A stretch of 36,130 bases of DNA, taken from contig CALLDH010000127.1 in assembly GCA_937998345.1 (NCBI GenBank), positions 1 through 36,130 on the forward strand. Reading direction: 5' to 3'. Position numbers and translations under genes: made by a program. How positions within the stretch are numbered: position 1 is the stretch's first letter; every line of letters starts with the position of its first letter. The notes below the pieces were generated by a model. The model did no database searches. It was given only the letters and a program-made list of their open reading frames with translations, and was not told the DNA's origin. Origin of the DNA: an uncultured bacterium (GTDB lineage: Bacteria > Myxococcota_A > Polyangia > Polyangiales > Houyiibacteriaceae). This document shows positions 16,072 to 33,855 of this stretch, one piece after another.

Positions 16072-17811
16072 TCATCGGTCGGAGCGTACGAGTATCCACT
16101 GCCGGTTACCCACGCTCGCGTGAACCTGGACCGGCGCCGCGCCGAGAGCCTCCGCCCACGCGGGGATCGTTGGTTCCGCGATGAAGGCGACTCTATAGCC
16201 TTCGAGCGCGTTGTTCAACACCGAACGGAAGAACACCTGCGCATCCATATCGGCCTGGGCGCGTTTCCCGACGGCCGCCTCGGCCATGCCGTTGCCGAGC
16301 TGCCGTGGAATGAACTCCTGCGCAGTGGACTCGGGGACGACGAGCACCTCGGGTTTGCGAACGCGCACGTCGCCGTACGGCGCGTCGATCTCTTCCGAAC
16401 CGACGAGCGGATTGCGCTCTGGGATCGGCCTTCGGCTGACTCGCTGCAGGCGATAGGGCGCGTCGCCGGATACATCAAAGTGCGGAAGATGAACCAGCCA
16501 CCCGTACGTTTCGACCACCGTGCCTTCATCCAAACCGTCCAGGTACGCCCGCACTTCGTTCCGCGCGTCGCCGTGCTGAGTCAACTGCACCTCGAAGCTG
16601 TGCCCGGCGGCCCACACCACGAGCGCCGCGAGGACCCCCTGCGCCGCGCGGAGCGCGTGTCCATCCGTCGAGGCGAAACGCGAGAGCAGCGCTGCCGACG
16701 CCACACCGCCGTAGTACGCCAGCCAGAACCCAAAGGGCAGCACGAAGCGATGCTCGCAACGCCCAACGACGAGAGTAAAGAACAGGATGCTGCTCATGCC
16801 CGCGCAGAGAGGCAGCAAGCGGAACGTGCGCGAACGGACACCTTCGCCGCCGCGGTTGACGATGACGATGCCAACCCCGACCCAGCAAAGCGCGACGACC
16901 AACCACGGCCAGTAATAGGTCTCTTGACCAAGTCCGATGTCGATGATGTTGGTGAGGACGCCCTTGGGTGTTCTCGCATAGCTCATCCAGTCCTGGCTGG
17001 CGCCGCCCGTAAGCTCGCGAAGCCGGGCGACGAAACCAGTTGGGTTGAGGAGACCCCCGCCGAGGAGACCCAGAGAGAGCGCGCCGGCCAAAGTCGCAAA
17101 AGCCGTGTTCCGGTAGTGTGCTGCACGCGGGCCGAAGGGTTGATCGCTTCGCAGCGGCAACAACAGAACGTAGATCAGGCCGGGCAGCACGAAGCCGGCG
17201 TACGCCTGATCTTTGGTCGCTACCGCTGCACCGGCGAGGACTCCAAAGAGGATGTAGTCGCGGCGATTCCGTGTTTCGGCGACGGCCAGGAGCCGGTCGA
17301 TCGCGAGCGCCGTCCACATCAAGTAGGGCCCGTCGAGGTTGCTGACCCGGCCGTAGTACGCGAACGACAGGCAGGTGGCAGCCCACACCGCTGCCCAGCG
17401 GCCAGCCTCGGCGTTCACCGTTCGCCGCGCGATCCGCGCGAGCACCAGCAAGGCGATGCAGGCCATGATCACGCCCACGAGCTTCGCGACGAGTGAGCAA
17501 CCGGTCATCACCGGCACGGTGAGGATCTGATCCATCAACGCTGGCAGTGTCCATTCCTCTGCCCCGAGTGCGGCGGGCAAGAGGATCGGGATGCAGAGCA
17601 GCGCGATCACCGCGTTGTGAAACAGTGGGTATCGATGCCCTTGTCCGGGGGTCAGATTGATCGCCAGACCCGCAAAGAAGTCGCGAGGCGCGATGCCGTC
17701 ATTCTCCCAGCCGTACGCGCCGGGCAAGTCCCAGCCCACCGCGATCAGCTGAGAGAGCGCGAAGATGAGGACGATCCAGCCGACCGTTCGATCTTCCCGT
17801 ATGAGCTTCAT
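16072..17811 (-). CDS. Polytopic GT39/PMT-like glycosyltransferase
   Basis: A 579-residue membrane protein with about 9-11 hydrophobic helices, then a soluble C-terminal domain of roughly 150 residues. The first periplasmic loop, following VGWDLPGAYGWENDGIAPRD, carries acidic residues as in the PMT/ArnT family (GT-C fold), which transfer a sugar from a polyprenyl-phosphate donor outside the cytoplasm. The start ATG overlaps the stop of the upstream GT2 gene by 4 bases. That gene is a polyprenyl-phosphate sugar synthase type, which supports the assignment: donor made by one, sugar used by the other. Acceptor (protein, lipid or polysaccharide) unknown. Confidence 0.85.
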   Translation of the reverse strand: MKLIREDRTVGWIVLIFALSQLIAVGWDLPGAYGWENDGIAPRDFFAGLAINLTPGQGHRYPLFHNAVIALLCIPILLPAALGAEEWTLPALMDQILTVPVMTGCSLVAKLVGVIMACIALLVLARIARRTVNAEAGRWAAVWAATCLSFAYYGRVSNLDGPYLMWTALAIDRLLAVAETRNRRDYILFGVLAGAAVATKDQAYAGFVLPGLIYVLLLPLRSDQPFGPRAAHYRNTAFATLAGALSLGLLGGGLLNPTGFVARLRELTGGASQDWMSYARTPKGVLTNIIDIGLGQETYYWPWLVVALCWVGVGIVIVNRGGEGVRSRTFRLLPLCAGMSSILFFTLVVGRCEHRFVLPFGFWLAYYGGVASAALLSRFASTDGHALRAAQGVLAALVVWAAGHSFEVQLTQHGDARNEVRAYLDGLDEGTVVETYGWLVHLPHFDVSGDAPYRLQRVSRRPIPERNPLVGSEEIDAPYGDVRVRKPEVLVVPESTAQEFIPRQLGNGMAEAAVGKRAQADMDAQVFFRSVLNNALEGYRVAFIAEPTIPAWAEALGAAPVQVHASVGNRQWILVRSDR

Positions 17812-18512
17812 GTCCCGGCGAAGCGGAGCTTGTATGCGTAGAGCCGGCCCAGGTGGCGAAGGAAGTTCAGCTGCTCCTTGAGCGAGAGCTTGCTTTCGCC
17901 GTGTTGCCGGTCCGCGAAGTGGATTGGGACTTCGCTCGCGTGGTTGAAATCACCCTTCACGAAAATCTCGAGGGCGATCTTATAGCCGATGGGAGAGAGG
18001 CGGCCCGCATCCGGCATCTCGGCGCGACGGAAGGCGAAGAAGCCGCTCATCGGGTCTTTGAGGGGGCAGAGCGGTCGCGCGAGGAGCGAGGGGATGATGG
18101 AGTTCAGCTGGCGAAAGAAGCTCCAGTCATCGTGAATCGAGCCTCCTTGGACATAGCGTGAGCCGAGCACGAAATCGCTTTCACCGCGTTGCAGCCGCTC
18201 GACCATGGCTGGGATCGCGCTCGGCGGATGGGAGAGGTCGGCGTCCATCACGACGACGATGTCTCCCGACGAGACCGCGATTCCGTGAATCACCGCAGTA
18301 GCTAGGCCGCGCTCGCCCTTTCGAACCACGATGCGAACCGGAAAGCGCTCGGACAGCTCGGCGCAGATCTCCTCGGAGCCGTCTTGCGAGTCGTCATCGA
18401 TGAACAGAAGCTCGTAATCGTCTGCGAGGCCGGCGCAGGCCTCGTCCACGGCTTTGGCCACGTGCGGCAAGTTTGCGGCTTCGCGGTACGTTGGCACGAC
18501 GATGGAAATCAC
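17808..18512 (-). CDS. GT2 polyprenyl-phosphate sugar synthase (DPM1-like)
   Basis: A 234-residue GT-A glycosyltransferase of family 2. It has the start VVPTYREAANL, the nucleotide-binding FIDDDSQDGS, and the metal-binding MDADLSHPP (DxD, near residue 92), then LGSRYV and DPMSGFFAFRR, all typical of dolichol/polyprenol-phosphate mannose synthases. It lacks the C-terminal membrane helices of some relatives, like the short DPM1-type enzymes. It should move a hexose from a nucleotide sugar to a polyprenyl phosphate at the inner face of the membrane. Translationally coupled to the GT39-like gene. It is divergent from the DXD glycosyltransferase, with 95 bases between the genes. Confidence 0.92.
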   Translation of the reverse strand: MISIVVPTYREAANLPHVAKAVDEACAGLADDYELLFIDDDSQDGSEEICAELSERFPVRIVVRKGERGLATAVIHGIAVSSGDIVVVMDADLSHPPSAIPAMVERLQRGESDFVLGSRYVQGGSIHDDWSFFRQLNSIIPSLLARPLCPLKDPMSGFFAFRRAEMPDAGRLSPIGYKIALEIFVKGDFNHASEVPIHFADRQHGESKLSLKEQLNFLRHLGRLYAYKLRFAGT

Positions 18513-18607: not shown

Positions 18608-19564
18608 TTGATTCCTTCGATTGCGCACTTTGTTTGGTACGGAACCAGGCTGCCGTATCTGCACGCCCTGGCGATTCGCTCCGCCGCGACGCACGGCGGG
18701 TTCGACGCGGTGCGACTTCATCATACCGACCCGCTCGAAGAGCTTCCGCACGTTCGTGACCTGTATGAGCTCTCCAACGTCGAGCTCGTTGCGCTCGACG
18801 ACCGCGCGCTTTGTGAGGAGGCCAGTGGGCCAGCGCTTGCCAACCTGATCAGCAAGTTGAAGTCGCCCGTTGCTCGCTCGAACCTCGTGCGTACCGCATT
18901 GGTCTATCGTGACGGTGGCGTATATCTGGACATGGACACGCTCACGATTCGGCCGTTCGATGAAGTTCGGGCGCGCGCACCTGGATTTCTCGGGGAGGAG
19001 CACATCGTGTTTCCCGAGGAAGTGGTTACGTCCTGGGACCCGCGAGTTCAGGTCAAAGCGTACCTCAAGACCACGGTTCGCGACGTGTTTCGCCGACTCC
19101 CGCACGGCTATCGCCACTTCCCTCGCATCGAGCAGCACTACCATCGGGCGGTCAATGGGGCGATCATGGGCGGCGTGTCAGGGCATCCGTTCTGCGCGGA
19201 GTACCTCACCGCCATGACGCAGGTGCCGCAGGCTCGCTGGAACAAGCCCCACGCGCTCGGCACTCATCTGCTGCAGTCGGTATACAAACGCTACACCGGA
19301 GACGACCTGCACACTTTTCCTCCACCGTATTTCTACCCTCTGTCACCCGAGATTAGTGCGCACTGGTTTCGCTTCTACCGGAATGGGGTCGACCCGATGG
19401 AAGCACTTGCACCGTCGACGTGCTGTGTGCATTGGTACGCATCGGTTCGCACCAAGAAGATCGTAGCGACGATGGACGAGGCGGAGCTGCGGCGTGTCGC
19501 GGGTCAGCAGCTCTTTGCGGCTCTGGCGGCCCGTGTGCTCGATGGCGAGCTCATCGATCAATGA
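18608..19564 (+). CDS. Glycosyltransferase with DXD motif (Gly_transf_sug type)
   Basis: A 318-residue soluble protein beginning IPSIAHFVWYG, with the central motif VYRDGGVYLDMDT (DMD near residue 115), characteristic of the DXD sugar-binding family that includes capsular and Och1-like mannosyl- and galactosyltransferases. The C-terminal HWYASVRTKK is also a family-type ending. The start is a TTG, supported by GAGG eight bases upstream and by the family's usual N-terminus; no ATG or GTG fits as well. Its 3' end overlaps the convergent asparagine synthetase by 14 bases. It probably acts in surface polysaccharide or glycolipid synthesis. Confidence 0.88.
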   Translation: MIPSIAHFVWYGTRLPYLHALAIRSAATHGGFDAVRLHHTDPLEELPHVRDLYELSNVELVALDDRALCEEASGPALANLISKLKSPVARSNLVRTALVYRDGGVYLDMDTLTIRPFDEVRARAPGFLGEEHIVFPEEVVTSWDPRVQVKAYLKTTVRDVFRRLPHGYRHFPRIEQHYHRAVNGAIMGGVSGHPFCAEYLTAMTQVPQARWNKPHALGTHLLQSVYKRYTGDDLHTFPPPYFYPLSPEISAHWFRFYRNGVDPMEALAPSTCCVHWYASVRTKKIVATMDEAELRRVAGQQLFAALAARVLDGELIDQ

Positions 19565-21422
19565 ACTCCCGATACCAAAGTTCGAGCATCATGAGCGCCC
19601 AAATTTGATCGCCGCGTGGCTCTCCGCGCTGGTGCTGCCGGAGCAGTGCCTCGATGGCAGCCGGCTCGAAGATTCCGCGCTCGCGTGCTGTCTGGTCGAG
19701 CAAGACGTCACGCGACAGCGGTGCGAGGTCTTCCTTCATCCAGCGATCGACTGGCAGGCCGAAACCTTGCTTTCGCCGTGTCAGGATCTTTTCCGGGAGG
19801 AGCGGCTTGGCGACTTCCCGGAGGATGAGCTTGGTCGTGAGTCCGCGGAGCTTCATCGCGCCTGGTACGGACGCCGCGAAGGCCATCAGCTCCTGGTCGA
19901 CGAGCGGACATCGCACCTCCAGGGAGTGCGCCATCGACGCGATGTCGACCTTTGTGAGAATGTCATCACTGAGGTAGGTCTGGATGTCGAGGTCGAGAAG
20001 GCGGTTGACCGGGTCCGGGGCCGTCGATGCCGCGTAGAGCTCGCCAAAGCGGCGCGCAACGAGGTCCTCGGCGAAGCGCTCGCGCATGGCAGGCCCGTAG
20101 AGAGCGACGCGGTCTTCATGCGGGATGTGCGCCGCCAGACCGAGGAAGCGCACGTGCTCCGGCTCCATGAGTCGGCGACCGTAGTCGCGCACTTGCGTTG
20201 CGGCGGGGATCGGGATGCTGCCAAGCGCCTTCGCGAGCGCCTTGGGCAGTGGTCCGGGGAGTCCTCGGAGCAAACGCGCCGTGCGCGAGTGCGAATAGCG
20301 GCGGTAGCCGGCAAACGCCTCGTCGGCACCGTCGCCGCTGAGCGCAACGGTGACGCCGGTGCGCGTGTACTGACATAGGTACCAGGTCGGGAGCGCCGAG
20401 CTGTCGGCAAAGGGCTCGCCGTAGTGCCGAACGAACTCGGGGATGACGGAAGCCATGTCGGGCTCGACCACGATTTCGTGGTGATCGGTGCTGTAGCGAT
20501 CCGACACCATCTTTGCGTACGGAAGCTCGCTGAAATCCTTGCTGGTGAAGCCCACTGAGAATGTCTTGACCGGCTGTGACGACTGCATCGCCATCATCGC
20601 CACGATGAGCGACGAGTCGAGACCACCCGAAAGAAACGCCCCGAGCGGAACATCCGACACCATGCGAACTCGAACCGCGTCCTCGACCTGCGCGTGCAGG
20701 CGTTCGGTCAGCTCAGCGAGGGAACCAGTCGCGGGTTGGTCGAAGCGAAGTTGGAAATAACGTTCCGGCTCCCTGATGCGCCCCGCCTCGCAGATCAGCC
20801 GGCAGCCGGCTGGTAGCTTTCGGACACCTTCGAATGCGGTCCACGGGGACGGCACGTACTGCAGCGAAAGGAACGCGTCGATCGCATCGATGCGGGGGCG
20901 TCGCTCGAAACGACCGGACTCTGCCAGGGCCCCGAGCTCGGAAGCAAACACGAGACCGCGGGGATCCACGTGATAGAAGAGGGGCTTCTTGCCGAATCGA
21001 TCGCGAGCGAGCACCAGCCGGCGGCGCGGTCCGTCCCAGAGCGCGAGAGCGAACATTCCGCGCAGGTGATCGAGGAAATCGACCCCCTTTTCCTCGTAGA
21101 GGTGGACGATCACTTCGGAGTCGGAACGGGACTTGAACGTGTGACCCTTAGCCTCCAGGTCGCGGCGAAGCGCTTGGAAGTTGTAGATCTCGCCGTTCAC
21201 GATGACCGCGACCGAGCCGTCCTCGTTGGTCATCGGCTGGGCGCCCTCCGGCCGGAGGTCGATGATCGACAGTCGCCGATGACCGAGCACGCAGGGGCCG
21301 TCGGTCAGGTATCCGTGATCGTCGGGCCCGCGATGAACCATCGCGTCGCACATTCGCTGGACGGCTTCGCCATCTGGCGTCGCGTTCCGGTCGACCGCAA
21401 GCGTGCCCGCGATGCCACACAT
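19551..21422 (-). CDS. asnB: Asparagine synthetase (glutamine-hydrolysing), AsnB type
   Basis: A 623-residue two-domain amidotransferase. The mature N-terminus after Met removal is Cys 2 of MCGIAG, the class II glutaminase nucleophile; HRRLSIIDL and NGEIYNF belong to the glutaminase domain. The synthetase domain has the PP-loop SGGLDSSLI near residue 265. The paralogues found in polysaccharide and natural-product clusters often amidate a sugar acid or another carboxylate instead of making free asparagine. Here the gene is last in an operon with an MMPL exporter (4-base gap) and a patatin lipase, which favours a special role. The substrate cannot be read from sequence. Confidence 0.93.
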   Translation of the reverse strand: MCGIAGTLAVDRNATPDGEAVQRMCDAMVHRGPDDHGYLTDGPCVLGHRRLSIIDLRPEGAQPMTNEDGSVAVIVNGEIYNFQALRRDLEAKGHTFKSRSDSEVIVHLYEEKGVDFLDHLRGMFALALWDGPRRRLVLARDRFGKKPLFYHVDPRGLVFASELGALAESGRFERRPRIDAIDAFLSLQYVPSPWTAFEGVRKLPAGCRLICEAGRIREPERYFQLRFDQPATGSLAELTERLHAQVEDAVRVRMVSDVPLGAFLSGGLDSSLIVAMMAMQSSQPVKTFSVGFTSKDFSELPYAKMVSDRYSTDHHEIVVEPDMASVIPEFVRHYGEPFADSSALPTWYLCQYTRTGVTVALSGDGADEAFAGYRRYSHSRTARLLRGLPGPLPKALAKALGSIPIPAATQVRDYGRRLMEPEHVRFLGLAAHIPHEDRVALYGPAMRERFAEDLVARRFGELYAASTAPDPVNRLLDLDIQTYLSDDILTKVDIASMAHSLEVRCPLVDQELMAFAASVPGAMKLRGLTTKLILREVAKPLLPEKILTRRKQGFGLPVDRWMKEDLAPLSRDVLLDQTARERGIFEPAAIEALLRQHQRGEPRGDQIWALMMLELWYREFIDR

Positions 21423-21426
21423 TCGG

Positions 21427-23790
21427 TTATGCCCTCTTGGCCTGCTGAGGTGGGCACCAGGCCCGGAGCCAGATCAGGTTCACCGCCAGAGAGATGCCGA
21501 GGCCGATCACCCCGACCTGCCCCAGCGACCGAAGCCCGGGGCTGTCGGCGGTCATCAGGGCGCCAAACGCAACCATCGAAGTGAGCGTGGACGCGGCGAC
21601 CGCCTTGTAGGTCGCGTACTGCTGCCGCGGGCTGTCGTAGTCGTGTGCCCAGCGGACATGGACGGCGCCGTCGACGGTCAGACCGACGGTGACCGGCACC
21701 GCGAGAAGGTTGTAGAGATGGAGGTCGATCCCAAAGACAGCCAGGGTCGCCGCAAAGAAAACCGTGCTCAATGCCGTCGCGAGGAATACGTCGCGGGTCA
21801 CCACGAACGACCGGCTGGCGACGCCGGTGGCGACGATCAGGCCAAGGAATACCAGGGCAAGGATCCACGGCGCGTCTGCGATCAGGGCCGGGGTGACCTC
21901 GCCGAGGAGCGCGGCCCCCGATGCAAAGGTGACTTTGGGGTGCGCCTCTCGCAGTTGGTCGAGCCATGCGGCCAGCGCTTCCATGGCTCCGGCGTCCGAG
22001 CCCCGCAACGGGACGTAGATGACTCCGCTCTTGCCGACCGAGCCGTCTTTCAGGACCAGCGTTGCGGCGAGCCATTGGGGAATCTGATCCGGTTGTGGCG
22101 GCCCGTCGATGTCGACCCAGGGTTCGAGCTCGTCGAGCTCGTCGAGGAGCTCGCTGTCCTCGCGCTCGATCGCTTTCTCCCTCGCGCGTTCGATGGTTGT
22201 CTTGAGGTCAGCCAAGAGCTCGGTCTTCTCGTCGGAGTCCTCAGGGAAGATCACCTGCGCCGAGACCACGATCGGTTCGACGCCGAGTGCTTCCACGCCG
22301 CCCGCGGTCATCAGATCGTCATCGATCGCTGCGCTTACCGCTTCGCGCGACTCACCGATGTAGAGGGCGTTGATGTTCCCGCGGGCGCGCATCAAGGAGG
22401 CGTCGATGCCGTGTCCGACGCCTTTGGGCTGAAGCTTGCCCAAGTTGGGTTCAAAGCCGACCTGCAACGCGAACGGAACGGCCAAGAGCCCCGCTGCCAG
22501 CACGATCACGGCGAAGCGACGCGCGCTTCGGTCCTTTGCTGCCGGCGGTTGATGCACCGTGCTGCTGCCGGGGAGCAAGCGGACCATGTTCGGGAACACG
22601 GCGAGCGTCCAGAGCAGGGTCACGATGATGCCGAGCGAGGCCATCCATCCCATCTGCGCGAAACCCTGGAAATCGGTCATCGAGAGGGCGCCGAAGCCAC
22701 ACGCGGTGGTCAGGCCTGCGACCAGGAGCGACACCCATAACTCTTGCACGCTCGCCTTCGCCGCCGCGGCCGGCCCCAGGCCCTCTGCACGGGCAGACTG
22801 GTAGTGCATCAAGAGGTGAATGCCAAAGTCGATCGCCATGCCCGCGAGGATCGCAAGCGCGGCCGCACTGATGATGTTGATCTTGGGCTCGATGAGCGCG
22901 ATGAGACCGACGGCGACGGCAAGACCGCTCAACATGGGGACCATCAGCTGTACGACCGCCGTGAGATCTCGGAAGAACACCAGCACCATGAGCAGCGATC
23001 CCAGAGCAGCGAGGATCGACACCAGGCGAAGGTCGTTCAGGATGATACCGTGCTCGAGTGGAGCCACACGGTAGCGGCCGATGACTTCGATGCGCGTGCC
23101 CTCTGGCTGTGACTGCACCAGCGGGACGGTGATCGCTTCGGCGCGCTCCTTGATCATCCGGGCATAGCCGAGGTCCCCTGGAGAGCCGCTCAACATGACC
23201 TGTACGGCGCACACCGAGCCTTCGTCGTTGCATAGCGCTTGCGGACCTTCGTCTCCCTCTTTGCCGCCGCTGGCCTGCTTCGCGGATTCGCCGGTGAGCT
23301 GCCGGAGCACGATTCCGGCGGGGGAGATGTCGACCGCCTCTCGGACGGCGTCGCTGTCGGGAAGCTCCGGTGGGTCCGCGATGGTCACACAGAGCGGCGA
23401 TGCCTTGCAGACCTCCCAGTCGAGCGCCTCTTCCGCCAGCTCGTTCCACTCGTAGAGAGTGTCAGCATCGACGTAGTAAAGAGCGCGCTCAGTCAGCGCA
23501 TCTAGGCCGTAGCCGGTCATGACCCAGACGGTTTCGGGCCACTCCGCGAACGCCTCCGCGAGCTGATCGACGAGCGCCAGGTTGCGGTCCCGGTCGTCCG
23601 ATTCGACGAGGATCGTCAGGGGCTCTTCTAGCCCGAGCTTGTCGCGGGTGGCCTCGATCGATAGCACCGACACGGAATCGCTCGGAAGAAGGGCCTCGAG
23701 CCCCGTATCGAGCTGGAGGCCTCTTGCAATCCAAACCGCGAGCGACGCGAGACCGAGCGCAACGACGAGTGTCAGGAGTGATCGCGCCAC
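21427..23790 (-). CDS. MMPL/RND-family exporter
   Basis: A 787-residue membrane protein with two halves, each with a hydrophobic helix, a large periplasmic loop and a bundle of five or six helices. The first half has the family motif GMAIDFGIHLLMHY, the second VPVTVGLTVDGAVHVRWAHDY, both with the proton-relay Asp typical of MMPL and HpnN-type lipid exporters. The first periplasmic loop has four Cys (in CKASPLC and CNDEGSVC), which could form disulfides. It starts at a GTG and overlaps the patatin gene by 19 bases. Relatives export lipids, hopanoids or lipid-linked metabolites. The neighbouring patatin supports a lipid cargo, but that is inference. Confidence 0.92.
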   Translation of the reverse strand: MARSLLTLVVALGLASLAVWIARGLQLDTGLEALLPSDSVSVLSIEATRDKLGLEEPLTILVESDDRDRNLALVDQLAEAFAEWPETVWVMTGYGLDALTERALYYVDADTLYEWNELAEEALDWEVCKASPLCVTIADPPELPDSDAVREAVDISPAGIVLRQLTGESAKQASGGKEGDEGPQALCNDEGSVCAVQVMLSGSPGDLGYARMIKERAEAITVPLVQSQPEGTRIEVIGRYRVAPLEHGIILNDLRLVSILAALGSLLMVLVFFRDLTAVVQLMVPMLSGLAVAVGLIALIEPKINIISAAALAILAGMAIDFGIHLLMHYQSARAEGLGPAAAAKASVQELWVSLLVAGLTTACGFGALSMTDFQGFAQMGWMASLGIIVTLLWTLAVFPNMVRLLPGSSTVHQPPAAKDRSARRFAVIVLAAGLLAVPFALQVGFEPNLGKLQPKGVGHGIDASLMRARGNINALYIGESREAVSAAIDDDLMTAGGVEALGVEPIVVSAQVIFPEDSDEKTELLADLKTTIERAREKAIEREDSELLDELDELEPWVDIDGPPQPDQIPQWLAATLVLKDGSVGKSGVIYVPLRGSDAGAMEALAAWLDQLREAHPKVTFASGAALLGEVTPALIADAPWILALVFLGLIVATGVASRSFVVTRDVFLATALSTVFFAATLAVFGIDLHLYNLLAVPVTVGLTVDGAVHVRWAHDYDSPRQQYATYKAVAASTLTSMVAFGALMTADSPGLRSLGQVGVIGLGISLAVNLIWLRAWCPPQQAKRA

Positions 23791-24662
23791 TGCGCGGAAC
23801 TATAGGCCTCGCGTCCCAGAACACAACTCCGGCTGAACGCCCGACCGTCCTCCAGGCCGAGCTCGAAGGTTTCTTGCAGCCCGTCGGGGTTTGCGTAGTC
23901 GAACTTGTCGATCGTGATCGGCTTCGACGGTTGCACCCAGGTGACCCGGTCCGCTTCGGGGAGCTTGCGCTCATACTTGCGGCTGAGCAGAACGAGAGTC
24001 TCACCGGGCTGGTCGGCCGCGAGCCGTACGGGGATGTTCTCGATCAGGCCACCGTCGAGCACCTTTCGGCCTCCGAAGCAGCCCTCTGGCAGAATGGGAG
24101 GTATGCACGATGCCGCCAATATCATGCTGATGTAGTCCTGCAGCGTGTGGCAGTCGGTCACTCGTCCGATGAGCGGTTTGAAGCCAGCTTTCGCCGGCCA
24201 CTTGGGGTGGATTGGATCTTTGCGGAGCGTGTTTTCGAGCCCGTAGATGCAAAGTGCGGCGGTTGCGCCGATCGTCCCGCCGAGCCACTTCGGGTATCCG
24301 CTCATCAGGAAGTGAACCGAAGTATTTTTCAAGATCTCCAAATCGTCCGGTCCAATGAGCTCCTTCAGCGCTTCGCGGTACATGCGAGCGTGCGGAAGCA
24401 GAGTGCCCTGCTTGAACGGACTGAGGTTGCGCCAGTGAATGTTCCTCGGATTCTGTGCTGTGAAGTCTTTGAAGAGATCCAAGGCGTAGTGTGACCGGTC
24501 GAGGACTGCGGCCGTTGCCATCGCACAACCCGCGCTCGTCGAACCCGCGAACTTCACAGAGCTCTGGAGATCGAGCCCCGCTTCCTTCGCGCCTTCCCAG
24601 AAGCCGAGTTGCCAAAAGCAGCGGCTGCCTCCGCCGGCAAAGATCGCGTTCCGAAACTTCAT
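23772..24662 (-). CDS. Patatin-like phospholipase / acyl hydrolase
   Basis: A 296-residue Ser-Asp dyad hydrolase. The oxyanion-hole glycines are [17 protein letters not shown] near residues 8-24, the nucleophile elbow is GSTSAG (Ser near 44), and the catalytic Asp is in [14 protein letters not shown]. There is no signal peptide. I chose the ATG at 24662 because the family starts just before the glycine loop; the ORF-track extension lies in the divergent promoter region. It is the first gene of the patatin-MMPL-asparagine synthetase operon. Likely substrate is an ester-linked acyl lipid. It is divergent from thrH, 124 bases away. Confidence 0.93.
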
Positions 24663-26314: not shown

Positions 26315-27145
26315 TCACTCAGTGCCAGTGCCAGTGCCAGTGCCAGTGCCAGTGCCAGTGCCAGTGTCCGCGTCGGTGCCTGGTGCGAAGCCGATTCGGG
26401 CGTTCTCGATGAGCTTCACGCCGTAGACCGCTCGAATCGGTTTTGGGCTGACCACGTCTCCGGTACTCCCCTGCTCGACGACACGGCCCTCCTGCAACAA
26501 GAGCGCGCGGTCGGTCGTGCTGAGGGCATCGGCCAGGTCGTGCAGCACTACGATCAAAGTGTGCTTGCGTGCCGCGAGCGTTCTGATCAAGCGCAGGACC
26601 GCCATCCCTTCGCCGACGTCGAGCGCCGCGGTCGGCTCGTCGAGCAAGAGAATTGGTGCGTCCGACGCGAGCGCGCGGGCGAGCAATACGCGTTGCTGCT
26701 CTCCGACCGACAGTTGGGTAAAGATGCGATCGCGGAGAACGTCGGCATGTGCGGTTTGGAGCGCATGGTTGATCGCGTCTCTGTCGTTCTTCGACATTCC
26801 GCCAAAGCTGCCGCCGTGGACATACCTGCCTAGTGCCACCACTTCCTCGACCGACAACGCAGAGCGAAGCAGGCTGCGTTGCGGCACGTATGAAACTCGT
26901 TTCGCCCTTGCCCGGCTAGAAAGCGAAGCGACGTCGGCGCCCGCGATCTCCACGCGGCCTTCGTATGGTAGCAAGCCGGCCAGGGCTTTGAGCAGCGTGC
27001 TCTTGCCAGCACCGTTGGGTCCAAGAAGTGCGAGCACTTCACCGGGGTTGGCTTCGAGGCTCACGTCGCGTAGCACGCTCCGCCCGCCGAGGGTGACGCT
27101 TACGCCCTGGGCACGAAGGCCCAAGTGTCCGTCGCCGTTACGCAT
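26315..27145 (-). CDS. btuD: ABC transporter ATPase (BtuD-like) with a TG-repeat tail
   Basis: A 276-residue ATPase. Walker A is LLGPNGAGKSTLLKAL, the signature is LSVGEQQRV (a variant of LSGGQ, with Val in place of the first Gly), Walker B is ILLLDEPTAAL, and the switch His is in VLHDLADAL. It belongs to the FecE/BtuD group for iron complexes and B12. The protein ends in a run of eight Thr-Gly pairs and Glu, encoded by the hexanucleotide repeat; family members usually end around ENARIGFAPG or earlier, so the tail is an addition. It overlaps btuC by 8 bases. Confidence 0.92.
   Translation of the reverse strand: MRNGDGHLGLRAQGVSVTLGGRSVLRDVSLEANPGEVLALLGPNGAGKSTLLKALAGLLPYEGRVEIAGADVASLSSRARAKRVSYVPQRSLLRSALSVEEVVALGRYVHGGSFGGMSKNDRDAINHALQTAHADVLRDRIFTQLSVGEQQRVLLARALASDAPILLLDEPTAALDVGEGMAVLRLIRTLAARKHTLIVVLHDLADALSTTDRALLLQEGRVVEQGSTGDVVSPKPIRAVYGVKLIENARIGFAPGTDADTGTGTGTGTGTGTGTE
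26321..26368 (+). repeat. Hexanucleotide tandem repeat (AGTGCC)n at the 3' end of btuD
   Basis: Seven perfect copies of AGTGCC (26321-26362) plus one degenerate copy, ending three bases before the btuD stop on the minus strand. Being a multiple of three, changes in copy number would keep the frame and only lengthen or shorten the Thr-Gly tail. The same motif family occurs in the FadL-like gene at 32125-32352. Confidence 0.95.
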
Positions 27146-28171: not shown

Positions 28172-28365
28172 GTAAGAGGGATCGGTCATCGTCCGGCCAA
28201 GCAGGGAAGTCGGTGAGAGGCCGGCGCGGACCCGCCACGGTATGTGACTGAATGTTCTGTCGTGATGCCACTGGGCGCTGAGCCTGGGAAGGTGACAGGA
28301 CCTGGGGTCGCGAGCCCGGAAACCTGCGAACGCACTTTTTGTGTCTATCACCTCGGGGACGGTGA
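28172..28365 (+). ncRNA. Cobalamin riboswitch 1, upstream of the TonB receptor
   Basis: The conserved cobalamin-aptamer pieces are present: GGGAAGTCGGTG (28204 onward), GCGGACCCGCCACGGT, TGCCACTGGG, and the B12 box GAGCCCGGAAACCTGC (near 28312-28327). The order and spacing match the known class. Just downstream a hairpin TCACC/GGTGA (28348-28365) has a TCGGGGAC loop whose CGGG could kiss CCCG (28231-28234) in the L5 region, the expected L5-L13 contact. About 50 bases later TTCCTG (28382-28387) is complementary to CAGGAA (28414-28419), which contains the start site's Shine-Dalgarno; B12 could therefore switch translation. The 5' limit is approximate. Confidence 0.93.
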
Positions 28366-30462: not shown

Positions 30463-30534
30463 CTTGACTTCGTTTTGCCACAAACTACCGTGACCCCTCT
30501 TGCGAGGGTCGAAGGCGGCTTCATCGAAGTCGTT

Positions 30535-30732
30535 GGAGATAGGCCGGCGGAGAGAAATCCGTTCGGTTGAACAGGGAAGTCGGTGAGAGGCCGACGCGGA
30601 CCCGCCACGGTATGTGACTGAATGCGCTGCCACTACGCCACTGGGTGAAAACCTGGGAAGGCGGCAGAGCCTAGGGTCACGAGCCCGGAGACCTACCCAT
30701 CGTGAGCTCACCCAGATCGCCTCGGGGATGGC
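30535..30732 (+). ncRNA. Cobalamin riboswitch 2, upstream of the lipoprotein
   Basis: The aptamer core from CAGGGAAGTCGGTGAGAGG (30572 onward) through GCGGACCCGCCACGGTATGTGACTG is nearly identical to riboswitch 1, so the two are recent duplicates. GCCACTGGG and the B12 box GAGCCCGGAGACCTAC (30681-30696) follow. A short hairpin GCC/GGC with loop TCGGGGAT lies at 30719-30732, again complementary to CCCG in L5. Before the start codon, CTTCC (30786-30790) can pair with GGAAG (30803-30807) of the Shine-Dalgarno. A possible promoter is TTGACT (30464) with TACCGT 16 bases on, just after the receptor stop. Limits approximate. Confidence 0.93.
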
Positions 30733-30810: not shown

Positions 30811-32082
30811 ATGGAACGGGAATTCGCGAACACACTTCTAGTCTGCGCCGCGCTCGCAGCGGTCGGCTGCGGGGACAGCAACTCGGCGCTCCGTCCCCTC
30901 GATGCAACGCCGCGATACGCGGTGGTCAGCTCCGACTACAGCAGCTCGTCCATCGCAATGCTCGACGAGGATTTCGAGGTCATCGACGAAAGCTGGCTCA
31001 ACTCCGGGACGACGTACCCAGGGCTGGTCGCTGCCTTGTCCGGCGACGTCGTATTGCCGAATCGGCAAGCCGGCGACGAAACATTCGCTGTCATCGATCG
31101 GCTTTTCACCGATGTCGTCACGCGCTTCTTCGTGCCCAGCGGAAATCTCAACGGGCAGGCGCGTACCCATGGAGAGGTGGGCGACACCGGCTTCTCCTCG
31201 AACCCGCAGGACTTCATCTTCGTCGATGCGGATAGCGCCTGGGCGCCGCGCTACGACTCCAACTTCAATCCTGCAGCCCCCCCGGAAAACCAAGGGAACG
31301 ACCTGTTCGAGATCAACCCGACCGACATGAGCGCCACCGGGGCCCGAATCGACCTCTCCTCTCTCGATACGACCGCCACCATCATGACGGACGACGGCCC
31401 CGTCGAAGTCGATGTCTTTGCACGGCCGAGCCGAGGCGTGCTCGTAGGGTCGAGGATCGTGGTCGGTCTCGATCGCATCAGCGGGAGCTTCGACGCAGCC
31501 GGCGATGGAATGGTCGCGATCGTCGACCTCGAGGAGGAGTCGGTGCAAGGCCTGGAGCTTGCCGGGCTCAAGAGCTGCGGGAACGTCGTTCCGGTGCCTG
31601 GAGCGCCCAGCAAGGTCGTCGTGGCGTGCGTCGGTTTCGCGCAGCCCTACGGGGACGAGCCGCAGGTACGCGCCTCATCGGGCGTCGTTTTGCTCGACGT
31701 GGCGGCAGCTGAGGTCACGATCGAGCGGCTTTGGCGAGTGGCCGATCACCCCGGGTCCGCAATTGCTGTGAACTCCGTCATCGCGATCGACGCGGAGCGA
31801 GTTGTCGGTGTGGCGAACCCCGACTCGACGAGGACCCTCGATGCCTTGTACGAGACGGATCTCGCGACCGGAGTGCAAGAGCTCGTTCACGAGTCCGGCG
31901 GCTCCTTCGTCGTCGGCCTCCCGGCCTACGATCCAGACAGCGAGATGCTCTACGTGCCGGATGCGGCGGAGAATGGTGTCGTCGAGTTTGCCTCTGAGAA
32001 CGGAACCTTCGTCGAAACGGGTTCCACCAGCATCGCTCCCGGCCTCGGCCTCCCGCCGACAAAGGTCTACTTGCTCGACTGA
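30811..32082 (+). CDS. Riboswitch-controlled lipoprotein, propeller-like (possible B12-binding surface protein)
   Basis: A 423-residue protein. The ATG at 30811 has GGAGGA five bases upstream and starts a lipoprotein signal ending in AAVGC (Cys near residue 20); the ORF-track start is upstream of this. I do not recognise the family. The mature part has about seven segments with a blade-like pattern of hydrophobic residues around Asp, for example SIAMLDEDFEVID, FAVIDRLF, MVAIVDLEEESV, GVVLLDVAAAEV, YETDLATG and GVVEFASENG, suggesting a seven-bladed propeller. Many acidic residues in loops could bind calcium. The gene stands behind its own cobalamin riboswitch next to a BtuB-like receptor, so a role in capturing B12, like BtuG of Bacteroides, is a reasonable inference. 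Confidence 0.85.
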   Translation: MEREFANTLLVCAALAAVGCGDSNSALRPLDATPRYAVVSSDYSSSSIAMLDEDFEVIDESWLNSGTTYPGLVAALSGDVVLPNRQAGDETFAVIDRLFTDVVTRFFVPSGNLNGQARTHGEVGDTGFSSNPQDFIFVDADSAWAPRYDSNFNPAAPPENQGNDLFEINPTDMSATGARIDLSSLDTTATIMTDDGPVEVDVFARPSRGVLVGSRIVVGLDRISGSFDAAGDGMVAIVDLEEESVQGLELAGLKSCGNVVPVPGAPSKVVVACVGFAQPYGDEPQVRASSGVVLLDVAAAEVTIERLWRVADHPGSAIAVNSVIAIDAERVVGVANPDSTRTLDALYETDLATGVQELVHESGGSFVVGLPAYDPDSEMLYVPDAAENGVVEFASENGTFVETGSTSIAPGLGLPPTKVYLLD

Positions 32083-32091
32083 CGTCCAGCG

Positions 32092-33855
32092 CTACTGCGG
32101 CTCCGCCGGTGACTCCTCCGGGGGAGTGTGAGTGTCAGCGTCAGCGTCAGTGCCAGCGTCAGTGCCAGCGCCGGTGTCAGCGTCAGTGCCAGCGCCAGTG
32201 CCAGCGCCAGTGTCAGTGCCAGCGTCAGTGCCAGCGTCAGCGTCAGTGTCAGTGCCAGCGTCAGCGTCGGTGTCAGCCCCAGCGCCAGCGCCGGTCTCAG
32301 TGCCAGCGCCGGTCTCAGTGCCAGCGTCGGTGTCAGTGCCGGCGTCCGTGCCACTCGGGGCGTCCGGGTCCTCCTCGGCGTTGCCGTTTTTCTTCTTGGC
32401 CTTCTTCTTCTTGTACTTCTGCTGAACGTCTTTCGCGCCCTTGCTCGCGACCGAGACGGCGCCGGCGACGTACAAGACGAGGGCGGAGATGGTGGCTTTG
32501 GTTCGCTCGTAGCCGCTCACCTGCGCGTCGGGATCGATTTTGAATGACAGGGCGTCTCCCTTTCCGAAGTACCCGTTCGCACCGAGGGTGAGGCGATATC
32601 CATGCGTGTCGACGCCTATCGAGAAAGCGGCGCCAAACATGTTGACCTGGTCCGGCGCGTACACGGTCGAGGTAGCGGGCACGTCGGGCGCCGAGGAGAT
32701 GTTGGTGAACAGGCCGCCGGCCACCACGACCTTGCCGAACATGTGCTCGGACCCGACCGCGACGTTTGGCGTCCAACGCCGTTCGGTCGAGTTCGCGTAG
32801 TAAACACCGAGGTTGCCAGGGACGTCTGCGATTTGGTCAGGGCGATCGAAGACGGCCTGTGTGCGCACGGGGCCCGTGACCGAGGCATCCACGGATAGGA
32901 CCGTCGTGGCATTTGCCTTGAACTCGAAACCCGTCCGCAGCTCGAACGGGATCGGTATGTTCGTCGAGAGGTCGCCTTTATCGAACACGAAATACGAGTC
33001 GTTCCCGTCCACCGCTGTCGTGGTGCGCCGAAACACGTTGCCCTTCTGCGTCACGGGAATGCCGGGCGGCTGGACCATATAGCCCATCTGCCAGCGCGGG
33101 TTGATGCGATGGAGCACGCCCACTCTGAAGACGAGGTGGTACGTGTCCACCCCGATTCCGGTGCTTGATGTTATCGAGTTGCCACCTATCCGTAGACCGC
33201 TCTCCTCGATCGTTCCGCCGGACGCGAGTCCGATGTCTTCGTTATAGTTCCCGCTCTGGTCTGCGAGGAAACCGCTCAGCCCAATGGCGACCTTCTTGGC
33301 GACGTGTGCCGCGAACGAAACCCCGTACCACCTCGTCTTGAAATTGTTGCTCAGGCGTAGGTCGAGACTGGCCTGGGCCTCGACCTGGGTCGAGCCGGCG
33401 CCAAAGCTCTCACGCGCAACCTCGAACGTGCTGTACCCGACGGCAAACTGGTGATCGCCAAATCGCTTGCGTCCCATCTTCACGACTGTCCCGATGAAGG
33501 ACGGGAGAGTCGTCGTGCCCGTGGACGTGAAGTCCGTATCGAGGTTCGTCGAATCGAACGCGTTCTCGACGGTGCGCCGGGTGAACACGATCGAGCTCAG
33601 GCTGCCCATGAGCTGGAAACGACCGCCCGTTACGATGCCTGCCGGGTTGTAGTACGTCGCCGATGGGTCGTTTGCGATGCCAGTGTACGCGCCACCGAGC
33701 CCCATGGCACGCTCGCCGATGGGGATGCTTCTGTAGTAGAGGGCCTGCGCTTGGGAACGATTCGGCGTAAAGGCAGAGCCGAGACAGATGGTGGCGACGA
33801 CGGCCGTCAAGGCGAACGATCTCACCCTCCGTGTTCCGCTGTGTGAGGCCCGCAC
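32092..33855 (-). CDS. FadL/OmpP1-like outer-membrane protein with repeat-coded tail
   Basis: A 587-residue protein with a signal peptide (about SFALTAVVATICLGSAFTPNRSQAQA) followed by RSIPIGERAMGLGGAYTGIANDPSATYYNPAG, the typical N-terminus of the FadL/OmpP1/TodX family of hydrophobic-compound channels. A beta-barrel runs to about residue 470. Then come a lysine-rich segment (KYKKKKAKKKN) and a long tail of alternating Thr/Ala and Asp/Gly/Glu, coded by 38 hexanucleotide units. A barrel should end near its last strand, so this charged tail is an unusual extension. The GTG start is taken from the ORF track; a GTG ten codons on is also possible. Confidence 0.9.
   Translation of the reverse strand: MRASHSGTRRVRSFALTAVVATICLGSAFTPNRSQAQALYYRSIPIGERAMGLGGAYTGIANDPSATYYNPAGIVTGGRFQLMGSLSSIVFTRRTVENAFDSTNLDTDFTSTGTTTLPSFIGTVVKMGRKRFGDHQFAVGYSTFEVARESFGAGSTQVEAQASLDLRLSNNFKTRWYGVSFAAHVAKKVAIGLSGFLADQSGNYNEDIGLASGGTIEESGLRIGGNSITSSTGIGVDTYHLVFRVGVLHRINPRWQMGYMVQPPGIPVTQKGNVFRRTTTAVDGNDSYFVFDKGDLSTNIPIPFELRTGFEFKANATTVLSVDASVTGPVRTQAVFDRPDQIADVPGNLGVYYANSTERRWTPNVAVGSEHMFGKVVVAGGLFTNISSAPDVPATSTVYAPDQVNMFGAAFSIGVDTHGYRLTLGANGYFGKGDALSFKIDPDAQVSGYERTKATISALVLYVAGAVSVASKGAKDVQQKYKKKKAKKKNGNAEEDPDAPSGTDAGTDTDAGTETGAGTETGAGAGADTDADAGTDTDADAGTDAGTDTGAGTGAGTDADTGAGTDAGTDADADTHTPPEESPAEPQ
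32125..32352 (+). repeat. Hexanucleotide repeat array (38 units, AGYGYC type)
   Basis: Thirty-eight units of six bases, mainly AGTGCC, AGCGTC, AGCGCC and AGTGTC, with no interruption in register. All reading frames across it are open, which explains several shadow ORFs. On the minus strand each unit codes two residues, giving 76 residues of the FadL-like tail. It is the same repeat family as the one at 26321-26368, with more sequence drift. Confidence 0.95.

Follow-up and report, generated by a model that had tools for sequence, protein, structure and literature searches.

Does the close packing of a patatin-like phospholipase, an MMPL/RND transporter and an AsnB-type glutamine amidotransferase in an uncultured member of the Polyangiales reflect one pathway, or a looser association of genes around an exporter? 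The three lie in a window of 36,130 nucleotides (the whole stretch of DNA that was analysed), on a contig of a genome that is 79% complete; among named records, the closest are metagenome-assembled genomes labelled Myxococcales, Polyangiaceae or "Deltaproteobacteria". Open reading frames and Pfam matches agree with the preliminary description in calling these three genes on the minus strand, the first two overlapping by 19 bases and the last two separated by 4 (Table 1). Comparisons of the window with congeners gave between-species dN/dS values of 0.07-0.21 for patatin, MMPL and AsnB, indicative of purifying selection on all of them.

Table 1. Coordinates of the genes and junction elements of the patatin-MMPL-AsnB locus in the window
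Feature	Position	Strand	Remarks
Patatin-like phospholipase, 296 aa	23772..24662	-	Pfam Patatin E 3e-18
MMPL/RND transporter, 787 aa, GTG start	21427..23790	-	Pfam MMPL E 3e-18
AsnB-type glutamine amidotransferase, 623 aa	19551..21422	-	Pfam GATase_6/7 + Asn_synthase E 2e-102
Patatin/MMPL overlap, 19 bases	23772..23790	-	4 bases in most relatives
MMPL to AsnB gap, 4 bases	21423-21426	-	same length in nine of nine genomes
-10-like hexamer TATAGT	23799..23804	-	ends 8 nt before MMPL GTG; coincides with patatin codons TAT (Tyr) and AGT (Ser)
Weak -35-like hexamer TTGTGT, 16-nt spacer	23821..23826	-	kept in most, not all, genomes
Purine-rich ribosome-binding stretch (aagaggg) + MMPL stop + 4-nt gap before AsnB ATG	21423..21438	-	
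GT32-like glycosyltransferase (DXD)	18608..19564	+	convergent with AsnB
GT2 polyprenyl-phosphate-type glycosyltransferase	17808..18512	-	
PMT_2/ArnT-like membrane glycosyltransferase	16072..17811	-	

The MMPL gene was recovered in 18 of 19 species-level genomes of the genus, and in most of them it is syntenic, with TIGR04551-PMT-GT2-GT32 on one side and thrH-btuFDC-TonB on the other. Among these 18 MMPL-bearing congeners the patatin is at the locus in 11 and AsnB in nine, some of the absences in such counts possibly stemming from incomplete assemblies; all three genes occur together in seven (G000, G017, G008, G015, G006, G014 and G003, the last counted though its trio is split over two contigs). 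Patatin and MMPL are found without AsnB at the locus in G005, G012, G007 and G013. The first two of these also lack GT32 there, and in G013 the MMPL match is limited to the N-terminal half (~396 residues; L133:8291-9868); the rest of the reading frame differs, as do the genes downstream. An antisense GT4 gene separates patatin from MMPL in G015 and G007. The patatin of G010 survives only as N- and C-terminal remnants (L120:1606-1788) next to an intact MMPL start and TATAGT hexamer, and the G001 locus has no patatin, AsnB or GT32. In a deep branch of the genus (G009, G016 and G018) GT32 is directly convergent with MMPL and both patatin and AsnB sit elsewhere, the patatin (L096, L097) following paired DUF1592/DUF1552 (PSCyt/HXXSHH) genes. 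Patatin and AsnB each also occur at other loci in congeners, and some AsnB carriers, G017 for example, lack the GT2, PMT and GT32 genes. Rather than a fixed triad, the three genes form a reshuffled, genus-level neighborhood of known enzyme types, in which the patatin is a detachable neighbor, dispensable for retention of the MMPL gene.

A search of 318 genomes of the class, about 300 of them from outside the genus, found no non-genus contig with relatives of both patatin and MMPL; three genomes (G026, G029 and G032) carry both, on different contigs. Patatin relatives at 51-61% identity are present in Halieaceae and in one other Myxococcota genome, and at these non-genus loci there is neither an adjoining MMPL gene nor any neighbor common to all. 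With none in the class genomes and none at these patatin loci, a conserved triad beyond the genus was ruled out; a literature search for a patatin-MMPL operon returned no relevant paper. The preliminary description had looked to gene order kept outside this genome, and to conserved co-occurrence, as marks of a real association: both are seen among congeners, patchily and within one genus, and co-occurrence does not extend to the roughly 300 other genomes of the class.

The junction between patatin and MMPL proved informative. The length of the overlap is specific to the window: relatives mostly have GTGA at the MMPL start, yielding a 4-base overlap, and because this has become GTGG in the window the patatin is extended by five codons. 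No Shine-Dalgarno sequence was found upstream of the MMPL GTG. Instead, TATAGT is positioned 8 nt before this codon in 13 of the 14 genomes outside the deep branch, G012 having lost it. Five genomes lack an intact patatin abutting MMPL (G015, G010, G007, G004 and G001); across them the identity of the hexamer is 1.00, against about 0.3-0.5 for its flanks, and the positions from -100 to -45 before MMPL are only about 0.3 identical. Retention of the hexamer in these genomes too suggests that MMPL probably has its own promoter, situated within the final codons of the patatin gene ahead of it and probably giving rise to a leaderless mRNA. A consensus promoter scan did not report the site because its -35 element is weak.

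This element leaves its imprint on the patatin itself, whose conserved tail EAYSSAQ is its translation by way of TAT and AGT, both minority codons in the window (44 TAT versus 150 TAC for tyrosine; 23 AGT versus 133 AGC for serine). Patatins that do not adjoin MMPL lack the AYSSA tail, and synonymous differences amount to 0.28 over the codons of the element versus 0.42 over the rest of the gene. The region upstream of MMPL in G001 looks like the 5' flank of the window's patatin (acccgatttt...ggcaactcgc) fused to the TATAGT block, as would be expected had the patatin been excised or not yet inserted. A promoter-like element between patatin and MMPL, combined with the patchy presence of the patatin, speaks against the single three-gene operon that had been proposed, and the location of the element in the patatin tail warns against assuming that overlapping genes share one transcription unit. 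The second junction is of a different kind: the gap between MMPL and AsnB is exactly 4 nt in nine of nine genomes, most with a Shine-Dalgarno-like sequence in the MMPL 3' end, at synonymous divergence of 0.6-1.3. By these signatures MMPL and AsnB are a tight, presumably coupled pair, such that in half of the species AsnB would be translated together with MMPL.

The patatin exceeds the Pfam gathering score (PF01734, 67.1 vs 27.7 bits) and appears to be cytosolic, with no signal sequence seen. Its predicted sites are Ser43 in STSAG, Asp203 in DGG and the oxyanion motif GGGSR; Ser43 and Asp203 are invariant in 20 sequences, and in the STSAG elbow the first glycine of GxSxG is replaced. In Foldseek the predicted structure (pLDDT 84) is similar to those of PlpD, CapE/CapV and patatin (E 1e-6 to 1e-3). 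A role in anti-phage defence, suggested by the CapV/CapE fold match, was set aside, as PADLOC gave no match.

The transporter is likewise above its gathering score (PF03176, 66.5 vs 20.5 bits), and Asp321 in TM4 and Asp707 in TM10 are invariant. Its predicted structure (pLDDT 45) had too shallow an alignment and was left out of the analysis. AsnB combines a glutaminase domain with the Cys2 nucleophile (MCGIAG) and a synthetase domain with an intact PPi loop (SGGLDSS) and the motif SGDGADE, an architecture also present in the TIGR03108/WbpS type. TIGR03108 is its best NCBIfam match (595.9 bits over a full-length alignment), below the curated cut-off of 816.9 bits. WbpS and WbqG, amidotransferases that act on sugar carboxylates to make uronamides, have been placed in this family (PMC7468200). 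Two AsnB lineages are seen in the genus, the at-locus one and another that in several genomes lies amid GT4, WecA-type and epimerase genes, and G010 carries both. A UDP-sugar dehydrogenase is encoded in 17 of 19 genus genomes. Exosortase (TIGR02602) reached its cut-off in none of the 19, and an XrtA/PEP-CTERM context was discarded on this ground.

What these proteins act on can be narrowed by weighing alternatives. Export of hopanoids or sterols by MMPL, in the manner of HpnN or BstA, would fit the best NCBIfam match (HpnN, E 2e-44) and the nearest solved structures, HpnN 5KHN (the best PDB match) and 6WU0; yet this match reaches 152 bits against a cut-off of 751.85, no characterised transporter being matched above cut-off, and squalene/oxidosqualene cyclase is found in 4 of 19 genus genomes versus 18 of 19 for MMPL, leaving this substrate class so improbable that we rejected it. 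That AsnB is an ordinary asparagine synthetase, with no relation to its neighbors, is also rather unlikely, even though it surpasses the cut-off of the generic asparagine synthase family (TIGR01536, 487.4 vs 267.1 bits), retains intact glutaminase and PPi-loop motifs and is the sole full-length Asn_synthase found in G000. Against this, AsnRS (asnS) is absent from all 19 genus genomes, gatA of GatCAB is present in all 19, and an Asn_synthase domain is missing altogether from G001, G004 and G013; therefore translation does not depend on free asparagine, and the supply role of the TIGR01536 type does not agree with the gene content. Moreover, AsnB has SGDG where E. coli AsnB (1CT9) has SGEG, a comparison drawn from the 1CT9 alignment alone because nothing on Glu-348 of E. 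coli AsnB turned up in a literature search. AsnB is thus probably not a housekeeping enzyme; amidation of sugars or other envelope components is a likelier role for it than asparagine supply, in keeping with its earlier label of amidotransferase. Action on a sugar carboxylate is the best reading, though a tentative one given the TIGR01536 score.

The same weighing applies to the arrangement as a whole. If the genes were neighbors without functional link, packed by genome compaction, the fluid gene order in the genus and the occurrence of each gene without the others would follow naturally; this is nonetheless unlikely in the face of an invariant MMPL-AsnB gap maintained at such divergence, mostly with a ribosome-binding-like sequence. 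At the other extreme, a single three-gene pathway, with lipid processing by patatin, amidation by AsnB and export by MMPL, draws on contiguity of the trio in several species, purifying selection and conserved junctions, but appears quite unlikely when a minority of congeners has all three genes, four genomes with patatin and MMPL lack AsnB at the locus, patatin is absent or decayed in two, GT4 intervenes in two and the patatin relatives at non-genus loci are not beside MMPL. We tentatively prefer, at somewhat less than even confidence, a genus-specific locus for export of an envelope glycolipid or glycan, with AsnB amidating a sugar carboxylate. Its core would be MMPL as an inner-membrane exporter, probably of a lipid or glycolipid; AsnB would most likely use glutamine-derived ammonia to convert a carboxylate to a carboxamide as WbpS does, most plausibly on a uronic-acid sugar made with the neighboring GT2, PMT and GT32 genes, and the patatin, by hydrolysing acyl chains, may serve to trim the exported lipid or to recycle it. 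A more ambitious version, decidedly improbable as a whole, would have the exporter's substrate both carboxamidated by the translationally coupled AsnB and acyl-trimmed by patatin, a new amidated envelope glycolipid pathway of uncultured Myxococcota with the exporter's promoter captured as patatin coding tail. To our knowledge, MMPL exporters beyond the mycobacteria are mostly without known substrates, and a coupled amidotransferase would offer a handle on the substrate of one of them.

Elsewhere in the window, two cobalamin riboswitches (Rfam RF00174) lie on the plus strand at 28172-28345 and 30524-30714, each preceding a gene: that for the TonB receptor in one case, that for an unknown 423-aa protein (30811-32082) in the other. 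Together with btuFDC they constitute a B12-uptake locus, possibly with the 423-aa product as a new B12-related protein of the cell surface. Two repeat arrays are also present: a perfect (CAGTGC)n hexamer array of 7.8 copies (26320-26366), translated as a Thr-Gly tail on the BtuD-like ATPase, and a 12/18/36-bp array (32131-32353) within the C-terminal region of a 572-aa protein whose N-terminal part weakly resembles PorV.

Compared with known systems, the patatin resembles PlpD, patatin-17 and the CapV/CapE fold in its domain, modelled fold and predicted Ser-Asp dyad, and differs from them in having STSAG for GxSxG, no sequence match in PDB and no PADLOC defence match. The transporter shares with the HpnN/HAE3/MmpL3 group of RND lipid transporters the MMPL domain, the RND-type layout and the relay aspartates, whereas it scores only about 150 bits to HpnN, has no link to hopanoid synthesis and, at 787 aa, has its own class-level relatives at 35-40%. 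AsnB has the class II glutaminase and Asn_synthase domains and the glycosyltransferase neighbors of WbpS, WbqG and the XrtA-associated eps_aminotran_1 family (TIGR03108); it departs from them in a score under the cut-off of 817, in a genus without above-cut-off exosortase and in the apparent coupling of its gene to that of an MMPL transporter.
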